Positions 44,061-64,000 of a DNA stretch of 64,000 nucleotides are shown one piece after another. The notes under the pieces are model-generated. The model made no database searches, was not told the origin of the DNA, and worked only from the letters and a program-made list of their open reading frames with translations. The position numbers and the translations under genes were made by a program. Location: contig NC_087380.1 of NCBI RefSeq assembly GCF_963675165.1, positions 7,326,517 through 7,390,516 of the forward strand. Reading direction: 5' to 3'. The stretch is from Halichondria panicea (lineage: Eukaryota; Porifera; Demospongiae; Suberitida; Halichondriidae). Positions within the stretch are counted from its first letter, which is position 1. Each line of letters opens with the position of its first letter.

Positions 44061-44107
44061 TTACTAATACCTGAATGCAAATTTTAGGGGGGGGGGGGTT
44101 GGAGCCA

Positions 44108-44572
44108 GAGGGGATACTCCCCCTGTGTACTGTATGACACCCGGTACCCTGGTACAATTGGCACAATAATTATTATACAATAGCTGTGCAATTACATTGT
44201 ACAGATGCTCACAGATGCTCCCTTGTGTACTGTATGACACCTGGCACAATACAATAGCTGTGCAATTACATGTACAGATGCTCCCCTGTGTACTGTATGA
44301 CACCTGGTACAATACAATAGCTGTGCAATTACATTGTACAGATGCTCCCCTGTGTACTGTATGACACCTGGTACAATACAATAGCTGTGCAATTACATTG
44401 TACAGATGCTCCCCTGTGTACTGTATGACACCTGGTACAATACAATAGCTGTGCAATTACATTGTACAGATGCTCCCCTGTGTACTGTATGACACCCTGG
44501 TACAATACAATAGCTGTGCAATTACATTGTACAGATGCTCCCCTGTGTACTGTATGACACCTGGTACAATAA
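44108..44572. repeat. 63-bp tandem array, about seven units
   Basis: Unit contains TGTACAGATGCTCCCCTGTG, TACTGTATGACACCTGGTAC and AATACAATAGCTGTGCAATT. Length is divisible by three, so the minus strand stays open; that apparent protein is a repeat artefact. The left units are less regular. Confidence 0.9.
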
Positions 44573-44587
44573 TTATTAATTATTAAT

Positions 44588-44762: not shown

Positions 44763-47160
44763 TTGTCACAGGTATATCTACTCACCTGGATGCCACAGCG
44801 CTGCGTTTACAGCATAGATAGCCTTCACAGAACAATATCTTGATTTAAATAGTGGCAGATTTTGATGTTAAAGCTTCTTTGTCGAGCAAAAGCTAAGAAG
44901 CTTGAATAAGCTTGTGACTAGGTCTGCTTACCTGGATGTTCTAGCACTGCGTTTACAGCATAAGTAGCCTCCACACAACAAGTTAGTACTTTTGATAGTG
45001 GCAGCTTTCGGTGTTAAAGCTCCTTTGTCTAATAAAAGCGAGCAAAATGTAGCTTGAACAGAACTTGCACATGCGTTACTTATAACTGAAGTGATCCTGT
45101 ACCAAGAACAACGGAACAGGGTCACTAAAGTAGAAAGCTGTATATACCAGGAACAATGGAACAGGGTCACTAAAGTAAAAGCTTGAATTATAGCATAGAT
45201 AGTAGCTCCTGCTGCTGGCTGGGATCCTACTCCATGCAGAACCTGGAGCCATACTTCTCTGAGACTCCAGGCTTCTTTACTGTGATCCTAATCCACAGTG
45301 CTATAGTACCACTACCTGTTCTCAAATGTTTCAGCATGCCTCCAGTCTGGTTTAGTTTTATTGCTCCTGAGTTGCTGTGCAAGTCCTACATGATAACAAC
45401 ATCACTATATGCACTGCATTATATTTCTGGTTTCTTTTTAATCATGTCACCAGCCGAGGGTTTGCACTTTAGTGCTCTAGGTTTGTTTGTTAACCCGATG
45501 CGCGTGGGCGGCCACGGGTTATAGTAGTCTGTCTGTTTGTTTGTTTGTAACGAGTATATCTACTCACCTGGATGCCATAGCGCTGCGTTTGCAGCATAGG
45601 TAGTCTTCACACAACAATATCTTGGTTTAAATAGTGGCAGATTTTGATGTTAAAGCTTCTTTGTCGAGTAAAAGCGAGCAAAAGCTAAGAAGCTTAAACT
45701 TGCCACGTGGCCTTGAGTCAAGGTACGGGATCACTTCAGCTGAAAATACGTAGTCAAGGCTTGATTATGTATTTTCAGCTGAAGTGATCCCGTACCAGGA
45801 ACAATTGTCAAGAAAGTAGAATTGTGACTGGTTGTTGACTGACTCTGGATCCTATACGTACTCCAGCCTGGAAGGAGCCGTGCTTCTCTTAGTCTAAGAC
45901 TCCAGGCTTCTTTGCTGTGATCCCAGTCCATAGTGCATGTCTCATGCATGTACGTTGTTAGTTTAGTTTTATTGCTCTTGAGTTGCGCATGCTAGTCATA
46001 CATGCTACATGCACTTGCATTATCACTCTTCTGGTTTCTTTATTATCACGTCACCAGCCGAGGGTTTGCACTTTAGTGCTCTAGTTTGTTTGTTTGTTTG
46101 TTTGTCACAGGTATATCTACTCACCTGGATGCCACATCACTGCGTTTACAGCATGGATAGCCTTCACACAACAATATCTTGATTTAAATAGTGGCAGATT
46201 TTGCTGTTAAAGCTTCTTTGTCGAGCAAAAGCTAAGAAGCTTGAATAAGCTTGTGACTAGGTCTGCTTACCTGGATGCTCTAGCACTGCGTTTACAGCAT
46301 GAGTAGCCTCCACACAACAAGTTAGTACTTTTGATAGTGACAGCTTTCGGTGTTAAAGCTCCTTTGTCTAATAAAAGCTAGCAAAATGTAGCTTGAACAG
46401 AACTTGCACATGCGTTACATATAACTGAAGTGATCCTGTACCAAGAAAACGATGGAACAGGGTCACTAAAGTAGAAAGCTGTATATACCAGAAACAATGG
46501 AACAGAGTCACTAAAGTAAAAGCTTGAATTATAGCTCCTGCTGCTGACTGGGATCCTACTCCATGCAGAACCTGGAGCCATACTTCTCTGAGACTCCAGG
46601 CTTCTTTACTGTGATCCTAATCCACAGTGCATATTATCTAAAGTACCACTACCTGTTCTCAAATGTTTCAGCATGCCTCCAGTCGAGTCTGGTTTAGTCC
46701 TGAGTTGCTGTGCAAGTCATGGCATGATGATGATAACAACATCACTATATATGCACTGCATTATATCAGTCTTCTGGTTTCTTTATAATCATGTCACCAG
46801 CCGAGGGTTTGCACTTTAGTGCTCTAGTTTGTTTGTTTGTTTGTTTGTCTGTTTGTCACAAGTATATCTACTCACCTGGATGCCATAGCGCTGCGTTTGC
46901 AGCATAGGTAGCCTTCACAGAACAATATCTTGATTTAAATAGTGGCAGATTTTGATGTTAAAGCTTCTTTGTCGAGCAAAAGCTAAGAAGCTTGAATAAG
47001 CTTGTGACTAGGTCTGCTTACCTGGATGTTCTAGCACTGCGTTTACAGCATGAGTAGCCTCCACACAACAAGTTAGTACTTTTGATAGTGGCAGCTTTCG
47101 GTGTTAAAGCTCCTTTGTCTAATAAAAGCGAGCAAAATGTAGCTTGAACAGAACTTGCAC
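44763..47160. repeat. Nested tandem duplication array (four large units, each with two half-units)
   Basis: Large units start at about 44771, 45551, 46110 and 46861, each with ATATCTACTCACCTGGATGC. Within the first, third and fourth units a diverged half-unit (TCTGCTTACCTGGATGTTCT) follows about 157 bases on; the second lacks it. On the minus strand each half-unit presents a 37-40 base exon-like block (translated GYLCCKRSA...S) bounded by an AG and a GTGAGT or GTAAGC donor. I could not connect these to a gene. Confidence 0.8.
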
Positions 47161-48120: not shown

Positions 48121-51100
48121 TCATGTACGTGTTGTCACTGCAGTAAGTACAACAGCAGCCACCACTAGCGCTACAGAAACAAGAGTAAGAAAGTAGAAAC
48201 TAGCCCAACGCAGTTTGTTGTCTCCAGTCACACCACTGGAAATCAAGGGAGTTATTTCTTCCAGCTTCCCCCTCTTCAGACAAGACAAGCCTCCGAGAAG
48301 AGAGCCCGTCTTGAACAGTGCCTGAATGGTTGAGGGGGCTCGTAAGGCTCGCTCTGTGTGTGGGTGTGGGTGTGGGTGGGTTAAGAGAGATGAACGTTAT
48401 GATTCTAAGAGCTAATTATGACTTTGAAATTGTTAAATTACGGGCACTCAAAGATATTGAAACTAAAACACAGTACATGCTCACCTGTTGAGGGCGACCT
48501 TGCTGCTAGGAAAGAGAAGGTGGTCAAGAACGCGAGCACAGTTACCAGGAACACCACCTCCCAAGCCATCACCACCCAGAATACGCGAATGCTCGGGTCC
48601 AGCAAATAAGCCCCCGTGGCTATGTTGACAACTATGTGTGTGTGGGAGGGGGGGCGGAATGAGTTAGGGCAAAGCAGCAAACAGTTAGAACAAAGTATGT
48701 TAATATAGAGATGGGAATTAAGGAAACTAATCTCTCAGCTAATAATTGTCTGTACCTTCCCCCTGACTTACGTGCTAGCAGCAAAGAGATGAGACCCACC
48801 ACCTTCCCATGGAGGAGGTCAAATATCCACCTCCTGGGGTTGTCTGGGTTACATCGCAGGAGACCGATGATTGGCTATGGAGGGGAGGGTATTAGTTGTA
48901 CTATAATTATATGCTAACTCACATTGACCAGGTGCAGGGCCATCACAAGTATTCCCACAGAGAAATGAGCCGTATTTAGTACCTGAAAATAGAGAGAACA
49001 TTACATAAAAATCCATCCTATAAATGCCAGCTGTTTCTGCCCACCCTCAGTCTTCACCCACCTTCCCCTGACCGAGTGGAATAAGCCCGGGAGTGGCTTT
49101 ATGGATATGACCGATAAACACTGAGGCGAAACCAACCGCCCCCACAACCACAGACGTCAGCATCAGAGCACGGTGGATCTGTATAGTCATCATTGTAGCA
49201 CATCAGATAACACTTGACGTTTGCAACACAAGTTATGGCCTCTCAAAGTTAGCTACAAAAAAATTATTATATAGCCCATGCTTTTTCCCCGAAAAATGTC
49301 ACTAATTAAAAAAAAAAGAGCTCAGTAATATTAAAATAATACATAAATTGAAACCGGACGTTCGCAACACAAGTTATGGCTGCTCAAAATTCAAAAACAG
49401 AACCATCAAAGCTTTAAACAACAGTCAGTGGATATCCTATAATCATTACAGCCACTAATTACCTGAAACCATCCTCCACTAGGTAGGGCCGGCTTCATGA
49501 ACACAGGGAAGAAAATGGCCGTCACAACTAACAACGGCCATGTTATTAACATGAGTGAAGCGTGAGTCTTCACAAGAGCATTCTCAAAGTCCTTGTTCTC
49601 TCCAGTTGCTGTTCCGTTGCCATAGGTAATATTTATTTTTTTGTCACTGATCTCAGGGAGATGGGCAAAATCGTGAGCATTGAGAATGTCCAAAGTAGAG
49701 GCGTTCTTTGATCGCTTGCCAAACAGAACATAGAGGTCTTGGTTGAGGTTGATGTCAAACTCGTCTGATGGTAGGATACGCTTGATGACTCTGCGCGTGT
49801 GTGTGGGGGTGTGAGGGGGGTGGGTGGGGTAACAGTGAAATTAAGTTCTGTAGGAGTGTATAAGAGGGCTATGCTTTCATATCTTTGTATATGCATGTAT
49901 AATTATGTATGTGCATTATAATTATTCTTTGATACTACTGTCTACATACATGTATACTTTTTGGTAACGTAGATGCTAGTTATAACACACTGATTACACA
50001 CTCTCATGCATCATCACACAATGGTATACTAGAACTACAGCTTGCACAAGCTATAGGAGTATAGATATAATTAGCCCTCTTCCTCTTACTTGCAAGAAAG
50101 TCGTCCGTCCATGTATTTCCCCTCAAACAGATATACGTCCTGTATCTCGTCAGTGAGGCTAGTATGGGAGGGGCCACCAGGGTTGAACAGGTCTAGCACC
50201 ACCATCTTGTCTCCCAGGCGATTGCAAGCCACTGCATCTGCCTCAAACTAGAGGAGCAAGCAATTATAGAGATTGGAAAAGGTTGCACAATAGGTCATTG
50301 GCCTCCGAGGTGCTCCCCATGAACAAGAATAATCAGAAAATAGAACTATAATTATTATAATAAACAAGTCAATATTCCAATGAAAATGTGTACATTCAAT
50401 ATAAATATTATATTATTCAATTCAAGTACATATACATGAATTCAAATAGCCCATGTATCTCACAGCAACACTTGCTATGATGCATGCAGATGCTCACCAT
50501 GCCCGCAGAGTGAGTGAAGCCAACGCCCACCCATCCTTCCGCTTTACCCTCCATGTAGATATCCAACCAACTGTCGTTACCACGATTAGTATCTATGGCA
50601 ACGTACACATTACAGTCGCCAATGCCACAACCTGATGGATTTTGAAACTGGAGCCGATATTTGTCTGGTGTTTTGATTGGTGGAAGAGTGTTACTAGGGG
50701 CAACGCTAACAGGGGGTGGTCCCTGGGAAGTGATGGTATATAATTAGTGAGAGCGTAGGATGATATCTAACTTACCAGTTGAGCAGCACTGAGCTGGTCA
50801 AAATGGACAGCCTTCTCTCTCATCACAGTATAGCTAAAGGGGGCGGGCGGTGCATGCATGGATATAAAGTATACCTGGAAAATTTGACGGGACGGGTATT
50901 ATTATTTGGCAGATGAACCATTTGATGAACGTATTTGGCGGTTTTTAATTTAACGTCTCAGGCGTGGCTACTACTGCAATGACGTTGTGTCCACCGGATT
51001 TTAAATTTTGCCATCTTCGGTAAATCCGTCAAATCGCCAAATTAAAACACCTACCAAATTTTCCAGTTATACGCTATAGTAAGCTGTGATTTACAGAAAT

Positions 51101-52158
51101 CATAATTATACATGCAGGAATAAGGAATTAACAGTTTCTCCAAACATGCCCAAATGTACAGTGCATTACAATGAACACCCCCTCGGTTCAAGCGAATTGT
51201 CACACACTCACAAGAAGTCCACAGTGCCATTGCTCAGTGGTGCTGTCCAGGTGAGCTGCACTAGGGAGCGGGGGAGAGCGTTGCTATGAGCTACAGTGGC
51301 CTGTGTATAGGGAGTACAATATTCATGACATCACATGTCGTGCATGCCCAAAGAGAGACAAGTATATGTAAGCAATATTCATACACTAAGCAAAGGGGGA
51401 GGAGGTTGGTCATATAGCTTACCAAAAGGATTATGTAAATTATAGACTAATAATTTGATAGAGTATGTAAAACTATGTACATGCACACCATAATTAATTA
51501 ATTATGTGAAGGAAGAATAGTTGGACACAATGCACACAAACTAACCTCAGCAGACACGCCCCCCTGATCACAGCTGAGGGTCTTTGCTCCGTCACTGACG
51601 GCTGTGAACTGGCCAATCAGACGAGGAGCAGCAGGAGGGGGCGTGGCAGGGTCCCGAGCTTGTATTATAAATCCCTTGAAGAAGTGAGTTGTACCAACCA
51701 GCTCAACTGCACGATCGAGAGGAACTTGAGACAGTCATGACGATGCATCCACTCTTCTATAGTGTGCTATCACACTTAGCAGAACAACAGACCAGTATGT
51801 TGCGTACACTATAGATCTAGATTATACATGCAAAACCTCGACCATTGTGCTCGACTATAGATCTGATTATATATATACATGCAAAACCTCGACCATTATA
51901 CTCGTCTAGATTTGATTTATATACATGCAAAACCTCACCATTATACTCGACTCCAGGCTCATAGTGAAAGGCTTTAGTAAGTGGAGGCTGCAACTGAAGC
52001 AGGTATCCACCATGTCCACTGTGTGAGGGTCCATGGGTTTGTAGGCTGGGGCTGAGCTCCTTGCACACTACATTGGGGTAGTCTGCAGCTGGAGGGCCGC
52101 TAGGATAGCCTGATACACTGCACAGCAGCAGCACTACTACTAAAAGAAACTCTTGCAT
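48121..52158 (-). CDS. FRRS1-like protein A: Reeler-DOMON-cytochrome b561
   Basis: Twelve exons on the minus strand: 51939-52158, 51546-51706, 51212-51300, 50776-50833, 50498-50722, 50090-50247, 49463-49790, 49062-49178, 48923-48982, 48772-48874, 48485-48631, 48121-48353; 632 residues against about 590 in human FRRS1. Signal peptide (MQEFLLVVVLLLCSVSG), Reeler domain (HSGHGGYLLQL...FKGFIIQARDP...LTWTAP), DOMON domain (CNVYVAIDTNRGN...EGWVGVGFTHSAGM...AVACNRLGDK), then a six-helix cytochrome b561 with haem-ligand-type histidines in KTHASLM, FQIHRALM, NTAHFSVG and LLHGKVVG. Predicted transmembrane ferric/ascorbate-linked reductase. This is the only cluster member with the standard single-DOMON layout. 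Confidence 0.88.
51820..51965. repeat. Triplicated exon-1/intron-1 border in FRRS1-like A
   Basis: The block ATACATGCAAAACCTCGACC plus ATTATACTCG occurs three times. The copy nearest exon 1 holds the working donor (minus strand ATG|GTGAGG). The two others read GGTCGAGG at the same place, so the donor is altered. Confidence 0.85.
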
Positions 52159-52397
52159 CTTGCACTGCACTACTAGCTGCACTACTAGCACTGCTTCTTA
52201 GGCCGATTTTTTTTAAACATCGTGAGGAAAACCTCGTGACTTGAGCGGCGTAGAAGCGAGGATATTGAGAGGGTAGTTTCTCCTTATTATAGCCGCCCTC
52301 GCCATAATTATAATACAATACTGAACAGTCATCTCGGTAGTTTTATGCTAACTACTCTTTGTTCTAACTGCTACTGTTTGTTTGTTCACAGGTTGCT

Positions 52398-55300
52398 CTA
52401 AGGGAAGGCCACCATGACGATCACAGCCAACAGCATCGGCACAGACACGCCCACGTAGACAATGAACGCTCCCCAACGGAGGGGGGAATCTTTGGAGGGG
52501 GTCTTGCGTTCTGGTTCGCCCTCTACTTCCTTCTCTTTGTCTCCCGGTGAGGTCATCTCCATTGCCTGACTCTTGTCCTCACGGATGAACCCTCTGACAG
52601 AACTGTGAGCACAATCTGTGGGGAAAGGATGTTATACCTGAAACTCCATACTAGCATGGCACTTACTGCTCTGTTTGGTCTTGCAAGCATACACTGAGAA
52701 GAAGATGGCACCGCCGACAAGGATTATAACCTGGAACACAATCCACGCTATAAACACCCAGAGTGGAACTTGGTTGGGGGTGGGGGGACCAAAGGTTGAA
52801 CTGCGGTCTCTTGTGAAGATAGAGAGGCCAAAGGCACAGTTCATAACTGATGGGGGGGTATTCATTGATGAATAGAATTTTTATATTTTATTTTTAAATG
52901 GTACTTACGAGCCAAGGTTTGTGACCAGAACCCAATCATGTGTCCATGTACCATGTTGAAGATCCAACGTCTGATAAAATTTACAAGTACATTTTATATA
53001 AAGTTAGATGTACATACATACCTCTTGTTGTCCGGTTTGCAGCGAAAAAGGGCAAGGATAGGCTGTCATAATAATTATACAGAACATAATAGTTAATAGT
53101 GAAATAATAATGAACTTACATTGGTGATTTGAAAGGCCACTATGACGATGCCAATAATCATGTGAGCTAAGTTCAGATTCTGTGTCGGAGGGAGGGGGTG
53201 GGGTAGGCTAGCATAGTACAATCAGAACATGCAGGCATGGACACTCACCCCACTCGTGTTCACGGGTCCCATCAATCCTACAAAGATGAGAATAAAGCCG
53301 ATTAGCGTTATGACCAGTGAGATCAGCATGAGCACTCGATGGACCTGGATGGGTTCAGTTAATCATTAAACATACACACAGCAATATTTATATTATAGTG
53401 AACTCACTTGAAACCACTCTCCATTAGGCAGAGCCGGGCGCATAAACGTTGCAAAGAAGATGCCAATTGTAGCCAGCAGAGGCCATGCAATAATCATGAA
53501 GATGCCGTGAGCACGGATCAGGTTACCCGTGTGGACAGACTCTCCGACAACTCCCCTGGAGTTAGCAGGAGAGGAACGGGCGTTGGATACGGCACTGGCA
53601 CCATTCCCGGAGTGGGACATAATACCGTTAGCCAAAGTGTTGTCAGCTGTGCGACGAGCAAATATCACATACAGACTGTCATCCAAATTTAAATCCTCTG
53701 AGTTCGATGGAACAATACGCTTGGACACACTGCATGGAGACGAAATAATTATTGTAACGGGTTAGTTTTAGTTTTAACATACGTGCAAGAAATCCTTCCA
53801 TTGACGAAAGAGCCATTGAATAACCCGACGTCCTGTACAGTGTCTATGCTGTTGCTTCTCCCTGGCCCTTGAGGGTTCCAAGCATCCCATGCGCTGATCA
53901 TATCATCCGTGCTGTTTCTCACACAAGTCACCACGTCAGCATTAAACTATTATAGAGGAATTATAATTATAGTACAGGGTTATGACTAGCCATCTTTGAG
54001 TGGGCGTTTTCTCAATACTGCTGTTTTACAGCTTCGAGTTTCCAAATCGCATAACTCAGGCATGGAACGAGGTGTGTGTACACTAAGCATATCATTGCGT
54101 AGGTAATTTTTTGCTCTATCATCTGGTATACAGATCGCAAAAATTATAGCTATATGGCATGGACACATGCAACTCACCATGTTAGCAGAGTCACTGAATC
54201 CCACAGCCACCCATCCTGCAGCTGTGCCCTCCATATAGATATCCAGGAATCCATCATCTCCAGTGTTGGTGTCTATACCAATGAACAGATCACAATCAGC
54301 ACGAGAGCAACCGGTGGGACTGAGTATCTGCAGGCGGTACTCTTCAGGAGCTCTCACAGGAGCCATGGTAGGAATAGCGCTAGTAGAGGCAGTGGTGACA
54401 GTGTAACGGACAGCACTGGGAGCTCTAGTGGATGGCTGAGCAGGATTTACAGCATGACTTTGAAGGGAATCGAGTGATGTCGACACGGTGATACGACGAG
54501 CGTAGAGTACATAGAGGTCAGTTGACAGGTCCAGGTCCTCCCCCGCTCCATTCAGAGCAATCCTCTTGGATACACTAAATGAGAACAGACAAATTAGAAA
54601 ATTAATTGGAATTTCTTAATGGTTCGTGTAATCATGCCTCAGGGTGTAATAAATTGTTACAATGGCGTACGTGCAAGAAAGCCTTGTGTTAGTAGCATTA
54701 TAGCTTGAAGTGTAGAGGGTTACGTCTTGAAGAGTGTCTCGGGTGTTGTTTCTTGTACCAGCGGGGAGGTTCCAACCATCAATGGCCACAATGTCACCAT
54801 CCACTCTGTTGCAGGCCACCACATCCGCTGAAAACTGCCAAAGGTCATGTGGACATGTTATGCAACGGTTGAGTCTATAAAAACAAGTCTAAGCCTGTGA
54901 TAATGTCTAAATAAACAACTTGACCCCACGCAGACAATGTTTTGATTAACACTATTGGTAAGGAGGCCATGCGCAAAGTTATTTGTTCTTGTGCTTGGAA
55001 TTTGGTAGCTTTCCCCAAAAAATTAAATATCATGTGACTCCAATTCAGAGGCACTAAAAGTACGTCACGAATAGCTTTCCCAAAACAGTATTGGTAAAGG
55101 AGGCCATGCAAAGTCAATTTGTTCTTGTGCGCTTGGCTTTCCCAAAAATAGCTTTCCCAAAAAGTTAAATATCATGTGACTCCAATTCAGAGGCACTAAA
55201 AGTACGTCATAAACAATTATAATTATGACTAAAAATTAATTATACTTTCGCTTATTATCGGCTCATTTATAGAAATAGTAGCCTGAGAAACTACAAATTT

Positions 55301-56621
55301 GTTTGGCCTAATAGATTGTAGTGGATTCAATATCTTTGTATATAATTATACCTACCATACTACGAGTTTCACTGAATCCCACAGCCACCCATCCTGCAGC
55401 TGTGCCCTCCATATAGATATCCAGGAATCCATCATCTCCAGTGTTGGTGTCTATACCAATGAACACGTTGCAGTCAGCACGAGAGCAGCCCTCAGGGTGG
55501 GAGCGAACAAATCTGTACTCGTCAGGTGATCGTACGGGAGCAGTGGTTGTCCCAGCAGGGAGGTCGATGGGAGGAGCCATGGTGGTGGGAGGAGGCATGG
55601 TGGTGGGAGCTGGTGTCTGGGGGAGAGGGTGGCAATCAGATTATTGAAGATCCACTGTACTTCAGACTTCATCTGCTGATACATAATCATACGCATGCAT
55701 AATGATTGTGGTTGACAAAGAAAGAGGGCAAGGCCCATGAATCTACTTGAGGCCTCCCCATGGGGGGGGGCTAGGATCATGATTATCCATGAATAAGGTT
55801 ACGGCTACATTGCACATACTGTCACTCCCACTAGACTTGCACTAATGGCATCGTAATGCATGGCCTGAACACGAACAACAGTGTAGCTGTATGGTGGAAA
55901 TGACAATTCAAATATATAAATTGCTATACATAACTCCACTCACTAAAAGTCCACATCCCCTGCAGTCATGGGGGCTGTCCAGGTGAACTGCACTGAGGTG
56001 GCATCAGCTTGATTTTGGGAGTGGGCAATGGTAGCCTGTGGACAAAATAATTATAATTATAGAATGCATTATGTACAGAACACTAAAATTAATGTCATCT
56101 ATTCAGTCAGTTTATCCTAACAGCATTCTCAATAAGTGTTAACATTACCTCATTAGCTGCTCCTGCCATTAGATCACAGGCCAGTGTTTGTTGACCGCTG
56201 ACAGTCTGGAAGGAACCCAGTAGCATTGGATCTACTCCAACACTAGGAGTGTCACCAGGCATTCTGGCTTGGACTAGGAAACCACGGATGCTATTTCCAA
56301 ATAGACGAACTAGAAAAAACAATTATAATTAGATACAGAAAAATAGGTAACTAGATCTACGTATCAATACAACGCACTCGTGTAAACAGTGCCAGTCTCG
56401 TAAGTGAATCCATTGGTAGCTGTTGCCATTGTAGGAGATATCTCCAGTCTGTATCCACCATCTCCAGATTGAGGGTCACCATGGTTGTTACGGTTTGGGG
56501 TCATCTGCTGGCATACCAGGGCTTCATTGGCACTGGGACTGAGAGGTGGACCCGAGGACATGCCAGTCACTGCATGGAGACTGCAGCAGGTTACAAAGAA
56601 CGCTAACAGGAGGACTCGCAT
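52398..56621 (-). CDS. FRRS1-like protein B: Reeler-DOMON-DOMON-cytochrome b561
   Basis: Fifteen exons on the minus strand: 56378-56621, 56149-56309, 55944-56035, 55820-55886, 55356-55616, 54671-54834, 54178-54574, 53783-53946, 53408-53729, 53249-53344, 53120-53179, 53022-53062, 52909-52970, 52667-52846, 52398-52615; 842 residues. Signal peptide MRVLLLAFFVTCCSLHAVTG, Reeler domain, then two DOMON domains (each with GCSRADC..FIGIDTNTGDDGF, EGTAAGWVAVGFS and a DVV.C second half). Linkers are Thr/Ala/Pro-rich. Cytochrome b561 keeps LIRAHGIFM, FQVHRVLM, NLAHMIIG and MVHGHMIG, but not the GHIHK segment of A. It ends with a cytoplasmic acidic stretch and a last helix. Starts 239 bases downstream of gene A. 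Confidence 0.85.
53984..54150. repeat. Second copy of the 17241-17553 element, interior only
   Basis: Shares ATCTTTGAGTGGGCGTTTTC, CGAGTTTCCAAATCGCATAA and GCTCTATCATCTGGTATA with the complete element but lacks the CAGGCTCTGGGAAAAGG ends. Lies in an intron of FRRS1-like B. Confidence 0.75.
54951..55215. repeat. Direct duplication of about 130 bp
   Basis: GGAGGCCATGC, TTTGTTCTTGTGC, AAATATCATGTGACTCCAAT and TCAGAGGCACTAAAAGTACG each occur twice, in tandem, within the intron between the halves of the first DOMON domain of gene B. Confidence 0.85.
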
Positions 56622-56689
56622 CTTGAGAGCAGATCTAGATCACTATAAAAAATAATCCCTTATAAATTTTTGCTGTGACTTTTAGTGAC

Positions 56690-57150
56690 ACACCCATCCA
56701 TAGAAGCTAAGCTATATAGGCGTTCCCAGGCCGATTTTTCTCTTTTATATATTTTACAGAAAGCATCCTGGCGTTATTTTAGAGACAACTCGGCCTGAGG
56801 ATTGTATCTGCATTTCCAGTATTGCGAAATTAATGCATTGGAAATTGCATGCTCAGTTGCAATGCAACAAATCTACAGTGGAACCTCCATTAACGACCAT
56901 ACGTCCATAGATTAAAGAGGTTGTTTTCTCGTTAAACATTGATCTTTATATAGTGCACATCATTACGCTCACTGGGCACTGCAATGACACGATGACGTTA
57001 AACACGACTCTCCATGCATGGCCTGCAACTTGTATTGACATTTTTATTGTTGAATGAACAACAGAAAACACACTAAATCTATCAACACTAAATCTATCTA
57101 ACTACGATAATTAGTACACAATTGTTAATTTTGTTCACGCGTTGGCTGAC
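56690..57150. repeat. Intergenic block duplicated at 62570-62985
   Basis: From upstream of gene B to the 3' flank of gene C. Shared segments: GGCGTTCCCAGGCCGATTTT-type start, CTACAGTGGAACCTCCATTA, TGCACATCATTA, ATGACGTTAAACACGACTCT, CCATGCATGGCCTGCAACTT and AACAACAGAAAACACACTAA. It marks the spacer of the tandem gene unit and holds the pogo-like end. Confidence 0.8.
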
Positions 57151-58696
57151 ATCTAAAGTGAGGTTACCATAACGATCACAGTCAGCAGCATTGTAACAAT
57201 GCCAAACATACTCTCTCGCATCGCACCAGAGGTGGAGGAGGCAGGAGAGAAACGGGCGCTGGATACGCCACGGGCACCATTCCCAGCCCCGGAGTGGGTC
57301 ATAATGCCGTTAGCCAAAGTGTTGTCAGTTGTGCGACGAGCATAATTATATCACCCACAGGTTGTCATTCAAGTTTAAATCCTCCGAGTTCGATGGAACA
57401 ATACGCTTGGACACACTGCACAGAGGATGTATACAATTATTTCTGAGACAATTCGGTTCTAACATACGTGCAAGAAATCCTTCCATTGACGAAAGAGCCA
57501 TTGAATAATCCCACGTCCTGTACAGTGTCTATGCTGTTGCTTCTCCCTTGAGGGTTCCAAGCATCCCATGCGCTGATCCTATCATCCATGCTGTTTCTCA
57601 CACAAGTCACCACGTCAGCATTAAACTAGAGGAATATATAGTACAGGCGGGTAACCGGATACTAACACAATATAGCCGCATGGACACAACTCACCATGTC
57701 AGCAGTTTCACTGAATCCCACAGCCACCCATCCTGCAGCTGTACCCTCCATATAGATATCCAGGAATCCATCATCTCCAGTGTTGGTGTCTATACCAATG
57801 AACAGATCACAACTAGCACGAGAGCAACCGGTGGGACTGAGTATCTGCAGGCGGTAATCTTCAGGAGCTCTCACAGGAGCCATGGTAGGAATAGCGCTAG
57901 TAGAGGCAGTGGTGACAGTGTAACGGACAGCACTGGGAGCTCTAGTGGATGGCTGAGCAGGATTTACAGCATGACTTTGAAGGGAATCGAGTGATGTCGA
58001 CGCGGTGATACGACGAGCGTAGAGTACATAGAGGTCAGTTGACAGGTCCAGGTCCTCCCCCGCTCCATTCAGAGCAATCCTCTTGGATACACTAAATGAG
58101 AACAGACAAATTATAAAATTCTAATGTAAGTGCGTAATCATGACTCAGGATGTAATAAACGGTTACATGCAATGGCGTACGTGCAAGAGAGCCTTGTATT
58201 AGCAGGATCATAGTTTGAAGTGTAGAGGGTTACGTCTTGAAGAGTGTCTGGGATGTTGTCCCGTGTGTTAGCAGGGAGGTTCCAACCATCAATGGCTACA
58301 ATGTCACCATCCACTCTGTTGCAAGCCACCACATCCGCCGAGAACTGCGAAGGTCACGTGCATGCATGGATATGTTACGCAACGTTTTATAAAAACAAAT
58401 CTAAGCAAACCACTTGACCCACAAACAAACAAACAGATTGACTTAGTGGTAATAAAAACGTATACAGTAGATTCAAACATTTACCATATTAGGAGAGTCA
58501 CTGAATCCCACAGCCACCCATCCTTCAGCTGTGCCCTCCATATAGATATCCAGGAACCTATCATCTCCAGCGTTGGTGTCTATACCAATGAACACGTTGC
58601 AGTCAGCACGAGAGCAGCCCTCAGGGTGGGAGCGGACAAATCTGTAGTCATCAGGTGATCGAACAGGAGCAGTCTGGGGGAGGGGGACAATCAGAT

Positions 58697-58815
58697 TACT
58701 ATAGCGGGAAATTTTCGTGGGAGTTTTTATCCCGGTTTTAATTTTCGCGTTAACTGCTCTGCCATCAAAACACGCAAAATGTTGAACCTCACGAAAATGT
58801 CCCGCTATACGGTAT
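58697..58815. repeat. Palindromic element, ATAGCGGGAAATTTTCG type
   Basis: Ends ATAGCGGGAAATTTTCGTGG and GAAAATGTCCCGCTATACGG are complementary. In an intron of gene C, missing from the same intron of gene B, so inserted after duplication. Confidence 0.85.
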
Positions 58816-58853
58816 TGAAGATCCACTGTAGTATTACCATACCAGGACACTAT

Positions 58854-59063
58854 TACCGTATAGAGGGTAATTTTCGGGGGACAAAACATTCGTGGTTCAA
58901 CAATATTGAGACATTTCGTGGGTAATATTTTCGTGGTTGGAGCTTGAACTGCAGGTAAAGGTAGGCAAGGTCGCTTCATTCGTGGGTAAAATATTCGTGG
59001 TCAGAGCTTCAACCACGAAAACCACGAATATTTTGCACCACGAAAATTACCAGCTATACGGTA
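58854..59063. repeat. Second palindromic element, CCGTATAGAGGGTAATTTTCG type
   Basis: Ends ACCGTATAGAGGGTAATTTT and AAAATTACCAGCTATACGGT pair. The interior has repeated ATTCGTGGT / ACCACGAAT. Adjacent to the previous element in the same intron. Confidence 0.85.
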
Positions 59064-59368
59064 TGCAACAGCATGCACCTGTGCATATATACAACCACAA
59101 TTATAGAAAGAAGCCATGTATAATCGTGGGATAAGGTTACGGCTATTGCACATACCGTCACTCCCACTTGACTTGCACTAATGGCGTCGAAATGTGTGGC
59201 CTGAACACGAACAACAGTGTAGCTGGATGGGGGAATGATAATTCAAATATACCAATTGCTACAGAATTCCACTCACTAAAAGTCCACATCCCCTGCAGTC
59301 ATGGGGGCTGTCCAATTGAACTGCACTGAGGTGGCATCAGCTTGATTTTGTGAGTGGGCAATGGTGGC

Positions 59369-60457
59369 CTGTAACAAATTAACATGGTTATAACTGTATA
59401 CAGAACTCTAGTCACCTAACAGTATTCTCAATTAAGGCCATCCAAGCAACCTGTTTCACAGACTTTCATCAGGCTATAGAAGAATGTGATATAGTATAGC
59501 GTCTTTATTTTCGAGGAGCTAATATTTCACAGATCTAAACATTTCGAGAGATTTACTTTCGAGGATAGAGAATATATGGGGTGCCGTTTGTCTCAAAACT
59601 AATAAAGAGTCGATGTTTACCAACAAGGTCGATGTTTACCTACCAGATCGATGTTTAGAGACAAATTTATGCTTATCAGATCGATGTTTAGCAACCAGAT
59701 CGATGTTTAGCATGCAACCAGATCGATGTTTAGCAAAGCTACCAGATCACACAAAGTGCAGATATTAGGGCGTGGTTTCTTGTGATACTTAATTAGAATT
59801 ATGAATTGTGCTAGCTAGTTGCAAGATGTTATAGCCATTGCTCTTACTACTGCTGTTACAAACAGCGGTTTACTTAGTAGATTCTGAAGATGAAAATAGC
59901 ACATATAGAGAAAGCCCTACAGTAAATAGAGAGTTTGATAACTGGATTTTTGAGGCACTAAAATTTCAATTGCGAAAGTTTAGCTCCTGGAAAATAAAGA
60001 GGTTTCCCCAAACCCCTGTATGTTGTGACAAGCCTCATAAGGGTGAGAGTGGGAGTTGTGGTTTCCTTTTTATAGAGTCTAACCAATTACCGGGATGAGT
60101 GGCCACTACATGCATGGCTTCTGTAAATGTGTTAAGGTAACGTTCAAGAGTAACTTTAAACATGAATAGGAGGTACCATTAACTATTTTACTTAAATCGT
60201 TCCATAGAAAACAGCTGTTAATAATATTTGAAACAGTTAACTCTTGTCTGCCTGAACAGGAATGCTTAATTGTGCAATCTATAGTTGCTATGCAGGTTGT
60301 TGGCTTCCCCAAACCGGGTAAGGTGCATTGGTAAATAAGCCTTGTAAGGATGGGAGTTTCCTCTTAGAATTAGGCTTCCCCACCACACTAGTAAGTGTGG
60401 TAACAAATAGAGACCCACTTGTACTCCATGAAACATGTAATTAAGTATTAACATTAC
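59369..60457. other. Enlarged intron 2 of gene C
   Basis: About 1.1 kb against 113 bases in gene B. It contains an ATAGCG-type fragment (59490-59590), an array of six to seven GATCGATGTTTA units (about 59608-59745), and an apparent plus-strand ORF from 59838 that has only a TTG start. Net insertion of unrelated DNA after duplication. Confidence 0.65.
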
Positions 60458-60921
60458 CTCATTAGCTGCTCCTACCATCAGATCACAGTCTAGTGTTTGC
60501 TGACCGTTGCCAGGCTGGAAGGAACCCAGTAGCATTGGATTTACTCCAACACCAGGAGTGTTACCAGGCATTCTGGCTTGGACTAGAAAACCACGGATAC
60601 TATTTCCAGCTAGACGAACTAGAAAAAACAATGATTAGATACAGAAAAATAGGTAACTATGTATCAATACAACGCACTCGTGTAAACAGTGTCAGTCTCG
60701 TAAGTGAATCCATTGGTAGCTGTTGCCATTGTAGGAGATATCTCCAGTCTGTATCCACCATCTCCAGATTGAGGGTCACCATGGTTGTTAGAGTTTGGGG
60801 TCATCTGCTGGCATACCAGGGCTTCATTGGCAGGGGTATCGATAGGTGGACCCGAGGACATGCCAGTCACTGCATGGAGACTGCAGCAGGTTACAAAGAA
60901 CGCTAACAGGAGGGCTCGCAT

Positions 60922-61713
60922 CTTGATATCAAATCTAGATCGTTTATTTACTGCTAACAGTAAAATCATAGATACTATAGAATGGTAGACCGTACAGTAT
61001 TAATTAAAAGGGCTGCATGTTGTGGCCATTATATAGAACAATGAGCATGCGCATTTAGTTTGCCTCGATTCCAAGCCGCCTGGAACTCAGAGATTTTTCC
61101 ACACCTGTTTACCCTGTGCGCGTGCGCAGGGCACAGCAGAGGTGAACAGAAGCTCTGAGTTCAAAGGCCGCTTTGAAATTTACAATCAGGTTGCACAATG
61201 TTAGTCTGTTGTTAGCAGCACTGCTAGCATTGGACTTGGAGGTCTCGGTCCCAAGGACAATGCTAGATCTGTCCCATAGTTCCAGTAGAACTCCAAAATT
61301 TGAAGACAAAAATTAATATGTACTGTAGCACAAGCCACACAGTATTAAAGGAAGTGAAGATACCAGACTATTTTGGTAGACCGAGACGTTGCAGATCTCA
61401 AGGATTGCTTTCACTTGCACAGTACGGCCTGGGAAGTGGTGAAACAAAAAGTGAGATAGTATGAAACGTATCGAGTTGATGGACATAGTGGAAAAGAAGA
61501 AACAAGAGTGGAGGTGGTGGGAAGGGTCTCAGTCTTTACTGATACTAGATATCTACATCAGACATGTATCTATATATACCATGTACCAGCTAGCTATTTA
61601 GACTATCTTACTTGTGCCATAGATAGTACAGGGTACATGGTTCACCACAAGGAGGCTAGCAGCGACTGCAGTCTGCTCCCCCTAGTGCCAGGCCCTAGCT
61701 AGCTAGCTAGCTC
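60922..61713. other. Upstream region of FRRS1-like C
   Basis: No supported gene. Open frames here (for example minus strand 61109-61309) have no family signature. An imperfect inverted repeat near 61080-61150 (TGGAACTCAGAG / CTCTGAGTTCAA) is the only structure noted. Confidence 0.45.
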
Positions 61714-62455
61714 CAGGGGCGGATCCAGAAAGGGGGGGCTAGTAGAAAGGGGCAAAGCCCCATACGAGGGTGGTGGAGCCACCCAGGGGGTGGGTATGGG
61801 AGGGGGAGCATCCCCCTCCCGGCGACATTTTTTGCTTTTTACAATTTGCTCACACTTTACCTTTGAACTGTCATATTAATAAGTGAATACTGAATATGAA
61901 AAAGTTAATACAAAAAACTCGTTCTAATCAACAAAAGGATGTATACTGTAGATGTTACATCTACATTCATGCACTCTTGGTACATGAAAGAATCACAATG
62001 CCTACCCAGACTGCACTGAGAGTGAGAGGAGGTAAGGCTGCTTCCTTGCAACTAGCTGAAAAAGTCTGAGATATGCTCCATGTTGCAGCTCAACAGCATG
62101 CACAATAGCCTCCTTCACAAGGCCTAGGAAGAGAGGCCTGGGATATGAGGCTACAAAACATTGCACAAGGAGCTGACTCAGCAACAGCAATAGGGTCTAG
62201 TTGACCTATGCACTTTATTAGTTCTAGCTAGCTATAGCTAGCTAGTATGTCCAGCTAGCTAGCCTACATCCTTTATACTCTTAGTAGCTAGACTTGGCTG
62301 TTGTCTAGCATCTCTTAAGTCAGTGAGTCTACATGCAGATGCATAAGTAACAAGTTGGTGGCAAAATTGTTGTAACCTCAGACTAGCAATACATAGGTAG
62401 TTTTTCAAAAGGGGGGGCTTCAGCTCCTCAAAACCACCCCCTGGATCCGCCCCTG
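61714..62455. mobile_element. Non-autonomous DNA transposon, ends CAGGGGCGGATCCAG
   Basis: 742 bases bounded by perfect inverted 15-mers CAGGGGCGGATCCAG and CTGGATCCGCCCCTG, with G-run and C-run subterminal DNA (GGGGGGGCT at both sides). No transposase ORF. The same kind of ends are known for hAT-like non-autonomous elements in several animals. A solo end occurs at 28671. Confidence 0.85.
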
Positions 62456-62981
62456 AGTTCGCTCTGAAGAACTTGAAATGATTTTGACAGTTTGCCATTG
62501 TTTTGACGTTGCCGCAAGCCTGCAAGGTTCAAAGGTCGACGTTGGACATATTCCTGATTGTACCTGTATTGACACACCCAATAGAAGAGAAGAGGCGTCC
62601 CAAGCCGATTTTTTCTCTTTTAGATCTACATAATACAGAAAGCCTAGCGTTAATTTTTTTTTGGGAAATTGCATACATGTACTCAGTTACACATGCAACT
62701 ACAGTGGAACCTCCATTAACGACCATAGATTAAACATCAACATTGATGTTTATATTATAGTGCACATCATTATGCTCACTGGGCACTGCAATGACACGAT
62801 GACGTTAAACACGACTCTCCATGCATGGCCTGCAACTTGTATTGACATTTTTATTATTGAATGATTGAGCCACGATTATTTTAGTAAACAACAGAAAACA
62901 CACTAATCTATCAACACACTAAATCTATCCTGAACTACGATATTTAGTACAATTGTTAATTTTGTTCACGTTGGCTAACAT

Positions 62982-63919
62982 CTAAAGTGAGGTTACCATG
63001 ACGATCACAGCCAGCAGCATTGGAACAATGCCAAAGATACTCTCTCGTATTGCACCAGAGGTCTGGGGGGGGGGGGGGCAATCAAATTAATTATTACCAT
63101 ACCAGGACTTTATGCACCTGTGCCAGTGTATATCATGTATATAATAATTATTATAATTATCAGGAGCCCATAAATAAGAGAAGGGGCGGCTAATTTTTCA
63201 ACGTATACTCGGGATGACGTTTCGTAATTGCTGGTGAAACCGCACTTCCTTGTACATGGAAGCAACTAAGTGCTTGCAAACCGCAGCCCTGTATTGCGTA
63301 TAACACGTGTAGGGATTCAACCACTTAGTGACTCTGCATAATAATTATATGGAAATGCGGTCATGCATGCACTTATGAAACGTGATCCCCATTGTCAGCC
63401 GCTCCTTGTCTTATTTATAATTATATAGGCTCCTGATTATATACAAGGTTGGTTAGGGTAATTATGCGTGGTTATTCTATTTTTGTGTCAATTTATAAGA
63501 GCAGTAAGTAAGCGTTATTGGTATCTATAATTATGCCGACTTGTACTAACATAGCGATAATGATTCAATACCTTTCGCGGGGTGAAATACAATACCCTAA
63601 CCTTAAGCCATGCATGTATGAATGATTGTGATCAACATAAACCAATGAACAATGTACCCCTGGGGTAATCTATATATAGGATCAAGACTATATATGGTAT
63701 GGCTACATTGCACATACTTGACTTGCACTAATGGCATCGTAATGTGTGAGCCGAACACGAACAACCGTGTAGCTGTATGGGGAAATGATAATTCAATATA
63801 CAAATTGCTATACAGAATTCCACTCACTAAAAGTCCACATCCCCTGCAGTCATGGGGGCTGTCCAGGTGAACTGCACTGAGGTGGCACCAGCTTGACTTT
63901 GGGAGTGGGCAATGGTAGC
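62982..63919 (-). CDS. FRRS1-like protein D: Reeler with single-helix tail (5' end outside window)
   Basis: Three exons on the minus strand are visible: 63828-63919 (ATIAHSQSQAGATSVQFTWT...), 63718-63772 (YYTVVRVRLTHYDAISASQ) and 62982-63062 (TSGAIRESIFGIVPMLLAVI.., ending VMVTSL). These are the last Reeler-side exons of B and C joined in phase straight to the hydrophobic last exon; both DOMON domains and b561 are missing, with only 655 bases between. The tail could be a membrane anchor or GPI signal. The signal peptide and first Reeler exons should lie to the right of base 64000. Confidence 0.7.
63160..63330. repeat. Dispersed repeat, second copy of 26185-26350
   Basis: Shares GGAGCCCATAAATA, AAGTGCTTGCAAACCGCAG, TGTATTGCGTATAAC and GGGATTCAACCACTTAGT with the copy upstream of Ig gene 1. 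Located in the last intron of gene D. Confidence 0.75.
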
Positions 63920-64000
63920 CTGTGGACAAAATATAATTTTGATACCAAGAGTGCATGGCCTCGAGGCGATCAAGGGATACGGTAAAGCTGATGCATGTGT

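Follow-up and report, generated by a model that had tools for sequence, protein, structure and literature searches.

A tandem array of putative CYBDOM genes in Halichondria panicea with zero to six DOMON modules and two members without a b561 core

Human FRRS1 closes with a final C-terminal helix, as do the array genes described here. Vertebrate FRRS1L has neither Reeler nor b561 and keeps the DOMON, and the plant protein AIR12 has no Reeler. A single CYBDOM each is reported for human, mouse and Drosophila, and AIR12 is described as a GPI-anchored CYBDOM relative with a single DOMON (PMC10784552). The DOMON of CG8399 bears Met286 and His379 (spacing 93), and 19 of 888 insect CYBDOM hits have two DOMONs, no higher number being named in the part of that source dealing with these hits (PMC10691727). 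HYP1 combines a DOMON pair, M90 and H174 (spacing 84), with b561 histidines H211, H245, H278 and H314 (spacing 34/33/36), and plant b561 proteins are described as possibly having one or more DOMONs (PMC10784544). For FRRS1L, which has a hydrophobic C-terminus, a GPI anchor at S317 is described, and both GPI and hydrophobic-domain anchoring are reported (PMC5500892). For Noduler, an arthropod Reeler-domain protein, binding to components of microbial walls is reported (PMC10321396).

The window analysed here is a 64,000-nt stretch of the H. panicea genome. Tandem minus-strand FRRS1-like neighbours, put at four in the preliminary description, were found to belong to a cluster of eight CYBDOM genes of the FRRS1/CG8399 type, named A to H, which spans approximately C4:7374637-7416071. 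Eight Reeler starts lie on one strand of contig C4, and the window ends inside the cluster, with E, F, G and H past its end. The array has in common with human FRRS1/SDR2 and Drosophila CG8399 the order of Reeler, DOMON and putative b561 core, a DOMON Met/His pair of matching spacing and four histidines in that core. It differs from animal CYBDOMs in its eight tandem copies and in a DOMON number that ranges from 0 to 6 (A1, B2, C2, D0, E1, F6, G3, H3). In our literature search, neither a tandem array nor a six-DOMON CYBDOM was described in the titles or abstract openings among the matches listed.

Spliced models of the array have GT-AG borders, except for one GC-AG border each in F and G and one in H proposed by eye. 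Several aligner models were adjusted by hand: before the CDS check, a 12-nt microexon in D and 9-nt leading exons in E and F; in C, two short exons of 3 and 86 nt within intron 4, together with the exon-4 end, set by homology to B; in F, 29- and 10-nt cassette pieces, for which a single 211-nt exon was substituted; and in H, the exon borders. The last exon of H was off frame in the CDS check, and its translated tail suggests a GC-AG intron there. A tRNA scan found no tRNA. The domain orders previously given for A (Reeler-DOMON-b561) and B (Reeler-DOMON-DOMON-b561) were both recovered, B without a frameshift.

Features of genes A to D. Positions are those of the window unless prefixed with C4 (contig coordinates).
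Feature	Position	Strand	Evidence
Gene A, Reeler-DOMON-b561, 12 exons, 632 aa	48121..52158	-	spliced alignment, CDS check, Pfam
Gene A, Reeler exons	52158-51939, 51706-51546, 51300-51212, 50833-50776	-	spliced alignment
Gene A, single DOMON	50722-50498, 50247-50090, start of 49790-49463	-	spliced alignment
Gene A, b561 core	end of 49790-49463 to 48631-48485	-	spliced alignment
Gene A, last exon	48353-48121	-	spliced alignment
Gene B, Reeler-DOMON-DOMON-b561, 15 exons, 842 aa	52398..56621	-	spliced alignment, CDS check, Pfam
Gene B, DOMON cassette exons	54834-54671, 54574-54178	-	spliced alignment
Gene B, final helix exon	52615-52398	-	spliced alignment
Gene C, Reeler + two DOMONs, lesion, downstream b561-derived helix	57156..60921	-	spliced alignment, CDS check
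Gene C, Reeler	60921-59156	-	spliced alignment
Gene C, intron 4, foldback (MITE-like) insertions, two, recognised by their inverted-repeat arms	58700..59063	.	alignment
Gene C, two DOMONs	58673-57346	-	spliced alignment
Gene C, in-frame TAA	57348-57346	-	CDS check
Gene C, +4-nt difference from B exon 9 (place approximate)	57345..57348	-	alignment; aligner frameshift at 57347
Gene C, rest of exon 9 fused to b561 final-helix sequence, untranslated as annotated	57344-57156	-	alignment
Gene C, tail TSGAMRESMFGIVTMLLTVIVMVTSL, then TAG; exon-9 interior fused to final helix of b561 gene	57156..57233	-	alignment
Gene C, 3' flank with AATAAA	56930..57155	-	alignment
Gene D, 3' part	62982..64000	-	spliced alignment, CDS check, Pfam
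Gene D, exons 1-2, outside the window	C4:7391327-7391570, 7391094-7391254	-	spliced alignment
Gene D, Reeler exons in the window	63919-63828, 63772-63718	-	spliced alignment
Gene D, deletion junction: interior of fused exon 9 now preceded by an intron end and acceptor with homology to the exon-5 (DOMON-1) acceptor	63061..63089	-	alignment, shuffle test
Gene D, last exon, TSGAIRESIFGIVPMLLAVIVMVTSL, stop	63062-62982	-	spliced alignment

Profile scans, which the preliminary description had proposed as a check, placed Reeler above its Pfam cut-off in all six proteins examined (A, B, D, E, G and C up to its stop) and DOMON above cut-off in the five that carry it (A, B, C to its stop, E and G). In A, B, E and G, Reeler (PF02014) scored 44.9-59.8 bits against a cut-off of 21, and DOMON (PF03351) 42.8-123.1 bits over the whole protein against 32.7; the Reeler domains of F and H were assigned through exon homology. 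Sixteen of the 18 DOMON modules are readable without a stop, and in each of these 16 a His follows 92-98 residues after a Met that was itself part of the search pattern. Whole-genome Pfam scans for DOMON and b561 did not return the split exons of the cluster among the matches listed.

A putative b561 core is present in six genes (A, B, E, F, G and H), and its four histidines are invariant in all six, with a spacing of 35/36/36. The Cytochrom_B561 profile (PF03188), proposed in the same check, did match the core, but with scores under the 23-bit cut-off (15.6 in B, 13.6 in G): four of the six cores matched at E up to 5, all below cut-off, and neither A nor E matched at E up to 1. Searches of the array core against PDB profiles and NCBIfam returned no b561 match, and hhalign against a b561-like ORF of the same genome (162 of 196 aa supplied) gave a probability of 0.2%.

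The DOMON cassette is a unit of two or three exons. DOMON number would change through duplication of this unit, and since both outer borders are in phase 0, such duplication would keep the reading frame. Two pairs of F cassettes are 99.8-99.9% identical (1203/1206 and 1100/1101), as expected of recent copies, and one F cassette has a 2-nt deletion. Such near-identity in a repeat-rich array could also come from an assembly or haplotype artefact in which alternative alleles were laid end to end. We consider this highly improbable, as all eight genes lie within a single 7.8-Mb contig, B, C and D are built differently and diverge at 2-13% of the bases of their four Reeler exons, and the intron-4 insertions of C are absent from B and were not seen by eye in the intron of D.

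A further family member on contig C5 is a Reeler-DOMON-b561 gene with the structure of gene A, and the ancestral state is therefore likely one DOMON plus b561. This relative, exon borders and phases common to the genes, and deletion junctions still legible in the DNA make in-place gain and loss of domains within this putative haem-reductase family well supported. The stepwise part of the earlier proposal calls for care. A position of D outside the B/C group had been named as a refutation; a tree of the Reeler exons placed D inside the B/C/D group (91/97) and led us to reject a position outside it. Within the group, however, the Reeler exons pair D with B (95/93) and not with C, whereas D groups with C mainly at the start of intron 2 and at the 3' end. 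The copies are thus mosaics whose history is not a clean ladder. Given the Reeler exons and the lack of visible intron-4 insertions in D, we rejected simple descent of D from present-day C; its source is a C-like ancestor or a mosaic.

Gene C had been described as Reeler-DOMON-DOMON plus one helix with a frameshift. Both DOMONs, the lesion and the downstream helix were found, but a +4-nt difference from B, the exact bases of which are ambiguous in the alignment, gives an in-frame TAA, so that the annotated gene ends before the helix. With the stop preceding the tail, an anchored product of C as annotated was rejected, and C is likely either a pseudogene or the source of a truncated, secreted protein. 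That C is a working gene seems rather unlikely, whether as a secreted Reeler-DOMON-DOMON protein up to the stop or through a cryptic 100-nt intron (57358-57259) that would skip the lesion and bring the anchor tail into frame. One of eight frame-compatible GT-AG pairs does score within the range of accepted junctions in A, B, D, E and G (donor 2.0, acceptor 1.5), though under the medians of 58 donors (3.8) and 58 acceptors (2.7) from these genes; one third of GT-AG pairs are frame-compatible anyway, and the spliced product would be without the His of the second DOMON. Furthermore, the dN/dS of 0.45 between the DOMON parts of B and C can stem from the period preceding the lesion or from gene conversion, and beyond the stop the ratio is 0.88 over 50 codons.

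That C and D have nearly the same last exon was confirmed: with the 3' flank, 260 of 272 positions are identical, B being about 60% identical to either, and the tail plus flank of C (57207-56930) is 96% identical to that of D (63036-62735). A genome search found this fused tail in two places only, C and D. The exon appears to combine an inner part of the exon that ends the DOMON with the final helix of the b561 gene. The tail of D aligned with the last exon of B at a score of 34 (shuffle mean 9.7), and none of 500 shuffles scored as high, as was also the case with F, G and H; the match is marginal with E (2/500) and not significant with A (91/500). The end of the D intron matched the exon-5 acceptors of B and C and a stretch further up intron 4 of C (0/500 shuffles each); other acceptors were equalled more often (B exon 9, 42/500; C exon 9, 267/500; B exon 15, 413/500; D exon 3, 43/500).

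Gene D, earlier read as Reeler plus one helix, does have an open frame (210 aa), with its first two exons beyond the window. Reeler is the only domain above the Pfam cut-off; DOMON and the b561 core are absent, and D is best regarded as a derivative of CYBDOM rather than a member. It retains its start, four splice junctions, stop and AATAAA, and its frame holds across a 12-nt shortening of exon 4 and the deletion junction. Could C and D nevertheless both be decaying pseudogenes, the open frame of D having survived recent deletions by chance? Decay would fit the in-frame stop of C, the F cassette as proof that lesions occur in the array, and dN/dS of 0.45-0.91 in the five closest Reeler pairs; among B, C and D, the range of 0.45-0.78 likewise points to weak constraint. 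The intact features of D argue against it, as does the B/D Reeler value of 0.45, which as a point estimate is the lowest of the five pairs, and we regard decay of both genes as possible but less than likely.

The hydrophobic C-terminus of D is preceded by Ser-Gly-Ala and a short polar spacer, and no residue follows the hydrophobic stretch. Judged by eye, it resembles a GPI signal most closely. A conventional type I transmembrane segment is an unlikely but credible alternative: the hydropathy of the tail (2.59) equals that of b561 helix 6 and falls among b561 helices (2.40-2.60), and FRRS1L is reported to be anchored by either GPI or a hydrophobic domain, yet the D protein ends with the stretch, and a GPI anchor at S317 is described for FRRS1L (PMC5500892). 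D is thus predicted to be anchored, by GPI in the preferred reading, and, because DOMON and b561 are missing, to be non-catalytic. Of the non-catalytic anchored or secreted products proposed earlier, D would be such a case, while C is more probably broken or secreted and truncated than anchored.

Presumably expressed, the intact members would most likely be plasma-membrane proteins in which a Reeler and, after it, one to six haem-binding DOMONs, all extracellular, precede a b561 core that would pass electrons from the cytosol to the outside, a ferric reductase by homology. In the C/D ancestor, a first deletion would have taken out helices 1-5 and spared helix 6. Its breakpoints would lie inside exon 9, between the DOMON end and helix 1, and inside the last exon, the remaining parts of the two exons being fused. 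A second deletion, in D only, would have removed both DOMONs without a change of frame, the DOMON-1 acceptor now leading directly into the interior of the fused exon. As helix 6 now comes after an extracellular domain and at the stop codon, it would be expected to cross the membrane in the opposite direction, and with Ser-Gly-Ala before it, it would most likely act as a GPI-attachment signal.

Overall, these patterns suggest that the array probably consists of tandem CYBDOM (FRRS1/SDR2/CG8399-type) genes in which DOMON number shifts by cassette duplication and two deletions removed the enzyme in the C/D line, D being a redox-inactive Reeler protein with a GPI anchor and C a pseudogene or secreted truncated protein. 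Much more tentatively, two frame-keeping deletions within one array (B-like, C, D) may have turned a b561 helix into a GPI-attachment signal and given a working GPI-anchored Reeler protein. In the same reading, copying of DOMON cassettes continues, with as many as six reached, and a single polypeptide could hold eight haems (six DOMON, two b561) and serve as an extracellular electron wire that can be adjusted.

FRRS1L takes part in AMPA-receptor assembly and is mutated in epilepsy and movement disorders. Both FRRS1L and D are FRRS1-like with a hydrophobic C-terminus, which carries GPI in FRRS1L and is predicted to do so in D. D has lost the b561 core, as in FRRS1L and AIR12, but retains the Reeler and has not kept the DOMON, unlike FRRS1L and unlike AIR12 with its haem DOMON. 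We assume a separate origin for D and FRRS1L, and D would work like FRRS1L or AIR12 at most in its anchor, GPI being predicted from a sequence pattern. Reeler is the sole domain in D, as in Noduler and secreted arthropod Reeler proteins; Noduler, however, is a hemolymph protein, and neither a membrane tail nor a connection with a b561 gene is known to us in that group.

The array shows how a redox enzyme gene can become a gene for a plain cell-surface protein. FRRS1L and AIR12 suggest that anchored, b561-less CYBDOM relatives arose more than once. To our knowledge, the route of origin is not visible for FRRS1L or AIR12; here the junctions are still readable, and the predicted anchor would be the enzyme's own last helix. 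Furthermore, the series from zero to six DOMONs in one genome may provide natural length variants for asking whether added haem DOMONs extend or tune electron transfer to the outside.

A search of the genome (131 Mb, 39 contigs) with the B Reeler protein gave 24 matches, 23 on contig NC_087380.1 (C4) and one on contig C5. Together with a tblastn search of the window extended to position 112000, using the 15 exons of B and the last exon of D, this search delineated a minus-strand array of eight genes, A to H; past H, the same exons found no further match up to 112000. A DOMON-b561 query (333 aa) gave 58 matches; two lay on C5 (6116106 and 6117825) and the others were all in the part of C4 that holds the array. 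The cluster of four genes reported in the preliminary description is correct in its main lines but not in its size; E to H lie beyond the window. Gene models were built with a spliced protein-to-DNA aligner, and some borders were changed by hand before the joined exons were checked.

Genes of the array. Window position p corresponds to C4:7326516+p, and positions above 64000 lie in the window extended along C4; start codons of E to H, set by eye, are slightly upstream of the coordinates listed.
Gene	Position	Strand	Structure or product
A	48121-52158	-	12 exons, 632 aa
B	52398-56621	-	15 exons, 842 aa
C	up to 60921	-	513 aa, ending at TAA
D	62982-65054	-	5 exons, 210 aa
E	66162-69847	-	668 aa from first listed codon; 673 aa with upstream start
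F	~70980-80431	-	six DOMON modules
G	~80662-84781	-	~1046 aa
H	~85522-89555	-	three DOMON modules

The Pfam protein scan covered six products: A, B, D, E, G and the part of C that precedes its stop. Reeler exceeded the cut-off in all six and DOMON in all five DOMON-bearing proteins, with two stretches each in B and C and three in G; no DOMON was found in the D protein. Reeler matches off the array, on contigs C17, C14 and C9 (loci L001-L005 and L007), were also over the Pfam cut-off and may represent other relatives. A GC-AG intron is apparently required upstream of the last exon in the 3' part of H (C4:7412038-7412507), and G and F likewise use a GC donor, gcaagt, at the equivalent site. Elsewhere in the window, tandemly repeated open frames with units like QYTGEHLYNVIAQLLYCTRCHTVHRGAS (44064-44586, minus strand) look like a satellite and not a gene, and a 300-nt direct repeat (46071-46370 and 46822-47121) is 94% identical at a distance of 751 nt.

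A further CYBDOM gene with the structure of gene A lies at C5:6112819-6119501 (L037). Modeled with the A protein as template, it is a Reeler-DOMON-b561 gene of 12 exons, 6 of which have the same length as in A. Since this gene, A and E each carry a single DOMON, the starting state was likely one DOMON plus b561, from which B, F, G and H would have gained DOMONs, and C and D would have lost the b561 core.

Four histidines are invariant in all six cores (A, B, E, F, G and H; B-core positions 5, 40, 76 and 112), with a spacing nearly equal to that of the b561 haem ligands reported for Arabidopsis HYP1 (211, 245, 278 and 314; PMC10784544). The Pfam b561 model matched weakly, with 15.6 and 13.6 bits for the whole B and G proteins and 19.5 bits for the B core alone against a cut-off of 23; with E values up to 5 allowed, it hit 4 of the 6 cores. 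Three other b561 tests of the core (a PDB profile search, NCBIfam, and hhalign against the genome's own b561-like ORF) were negative. Because of these results, we call the core a putative FRRS1-type b561 by its gene context, position and histidine pattern, and not by model score.

The DOMON cassette, from the Met of one DOMON to that of the next, consists of a 158-173 nt exon and a 388-421 nt exon, or in F of a 165-173 nt exon and two exons of 211 and 225 nt. Both outer borders are in phase 0, so that duplication or deletion of a cassette keeps the frame. The 18 DOMON modules coincide with 18 second-exon places from tblastn, and 16 are readable without a stop (exceptions, C2 and F2). All 16 have a His at 92-98 residues past the Met, the latter being part of the search pattern; the pairs described for CG8399 and HYP1 are Met286/His379 (PMC10691727) and M90/H174 (PMC10784544), respectively. 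In the tree of these 16 modules, in which 5 of 12 inner forks are open, B1 grouped with C1 (99/98) and F with E (100/99), and B2 formed a loose group with the modules of G and H (87/94), shown as an open fork. Among F units u0-u5, u1 and u3 are identical at 1203/1206 positions and u2 and u4 at 1100/1101, near-identity that points to very recent copying of a two-unit block. A frame-breaking 2-nt deletion in u1 is either real or an assembly error. This array (C4:7398989-7405164, extended window 72473-78648), in which units of 1.2 kb alternate with units of 1.1 kb and two pairs of units share 99.8-99.9% of their bases, is a candidate for copy-number polymorphism. A genome-wide Pfam scan, in which the array's own exons are unlisted, gave two other groups of DOMON exons (C1:14858864-14920232 and C12:175860-180749).

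Exon 9 of B encodes the end of the DOMON and helix 1, separated by a linker rich in Ser, Gly and Ala. In the alignment, exon 9 of C tracks it as far as the linker and then diverges, and the C and D sequence past this point matches the end of B's last exon. The D tail scored 34 against that exon (shuffle mean, 9.7; 0/500 shuffles as high), 27-28 against the last exons of F, G and H (0/500), 15 against E (2/500) and 12 against A (91/500), and the C tail scored 27 against B (0/500); tblastn revealed 11 identical residues in B and D (VPMLLAVIVMV). These matches indicate that a first deletion of ~1.1 kb (B coordinates) fused the exon 9 linker to the final helix. A genome search with the fused tail (341-base query) located at least two copies, one in D and one in C.

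In D, the C-rich stretch 63089-63061, running into the last exon, matches the acceptor of B exon 5 (DOMON-1) at 25/29 bases; past the acceptor, the exon continues within the fused exon 9, and by eye two bases (AC) are common to both sides. With dinucleotide-preserving shuffles, 0/500 in each case equaled the match to the exon-5 acceptors of B and C and to a segment lying further upstream within intron 4 of C, compared with 42, 267, 413 and 43 of 500 for the acceptors of B exon 9, C exon 9, B exon 15 and D exon 3, respectively. This junction indicates that a second deletion of ~1.4 kb (C coordinates) took both DOMONs from D, keeping phase 0. The earlier proposal of domain gain and loss in place is supported, and sharpened.

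The Reeler tree of the eight genes placed D inside the B/C group (B, C and D, 91/97; B with D, 95/93), not outside it. Identity varied by segment: exon 1 (BC 0.96, BD 0.93, CD 0.91), exon 2 (BC 0.91, BD 0.96, CD 0.93), exon 3 (BD 0.98), the start of intron 2 (CD 0.87 vs BC 0.56 and BD 0.52) and intron 3 (CD 0.94, BD 0.93, BC 0.87), with 260/272 positions identical between C and D in the last exon and 3' flank. We attribute this pattern to unequal exchange between the copies or to gene conversion. Descent of D as a plain daughter of C is ruled out by the mosaic of segments and by the pairing of B with D in the Reeler tree. Intron 4 of C contains two foldback MITE-like elements (58700-59063) with related ends, TACCGTATAG and CTATACGGTA (inverted-repeat arms); by eye, neither insertion was seen in D.

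Exon 9 of C has 4 additional nt at one place relative to B, and a TAA (57348-57346) ahead of the second DOMON's His; downstream of this stop the old frame is open as far as the tail. The lesion could in principle be bypassed in frame by one cryptic intron of 100 nt, with donor and acceptor scores of 2.0 and 1.5 (medians 3.8 and 2.7 for 58 junctions each in A, B, D, E and G). By default, we regard C as a pseudogene. In D, all four splice junctions are GT-AG, exon 4 is shortened by 12 nt with the frame kept, and AATAAA is present in the 3' flank. The pairwise Reeler dN/dS (small-sample values) was 0.45 for B/D (dN 0.046, dS 0.103), 0.78 for B/C, 0.61 for C/D, 0.70 for E/F and 0.91 for G/H; the C/D tail gave 0.73 on 26 codons, a value of little weight.

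Full-length members would expose the Reeler and DOMONs outside the cell, followed by six helices (counted by eye), the sixth directed from inside to outside. Because the former helix 6 of D now follows an extracellular domain, it should run the opposite way, with no residue behind it. At the D C-terminus, Ser-Gly-Ala is followed by a few polar residues as a spacer and then by a hydrophobic stretch of 18 residues, an arrangement that fits a GPI signal. If GPI-anchored, D would display its Reeler at the cell surface. The extra DOMONs of F, G and H could take electrons further out from the membrane, and further electron carriage by a DOMON on b561 is suggested in PMC10784552. This kind of change is already known from vertebrate FRRS1L, described as having a GPI anchor at S317 with A318 and A319 next and as held by lipid or by its hydrophobic C-terminus (PMC5500892), and from plant AIR12, a DOMON protein with a GPI anchor (PMC10784552). 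What seems new is that the series can still be read, that the last helix of the enzyme has been reused, and that DOMON number ranges from zero to six in one array.
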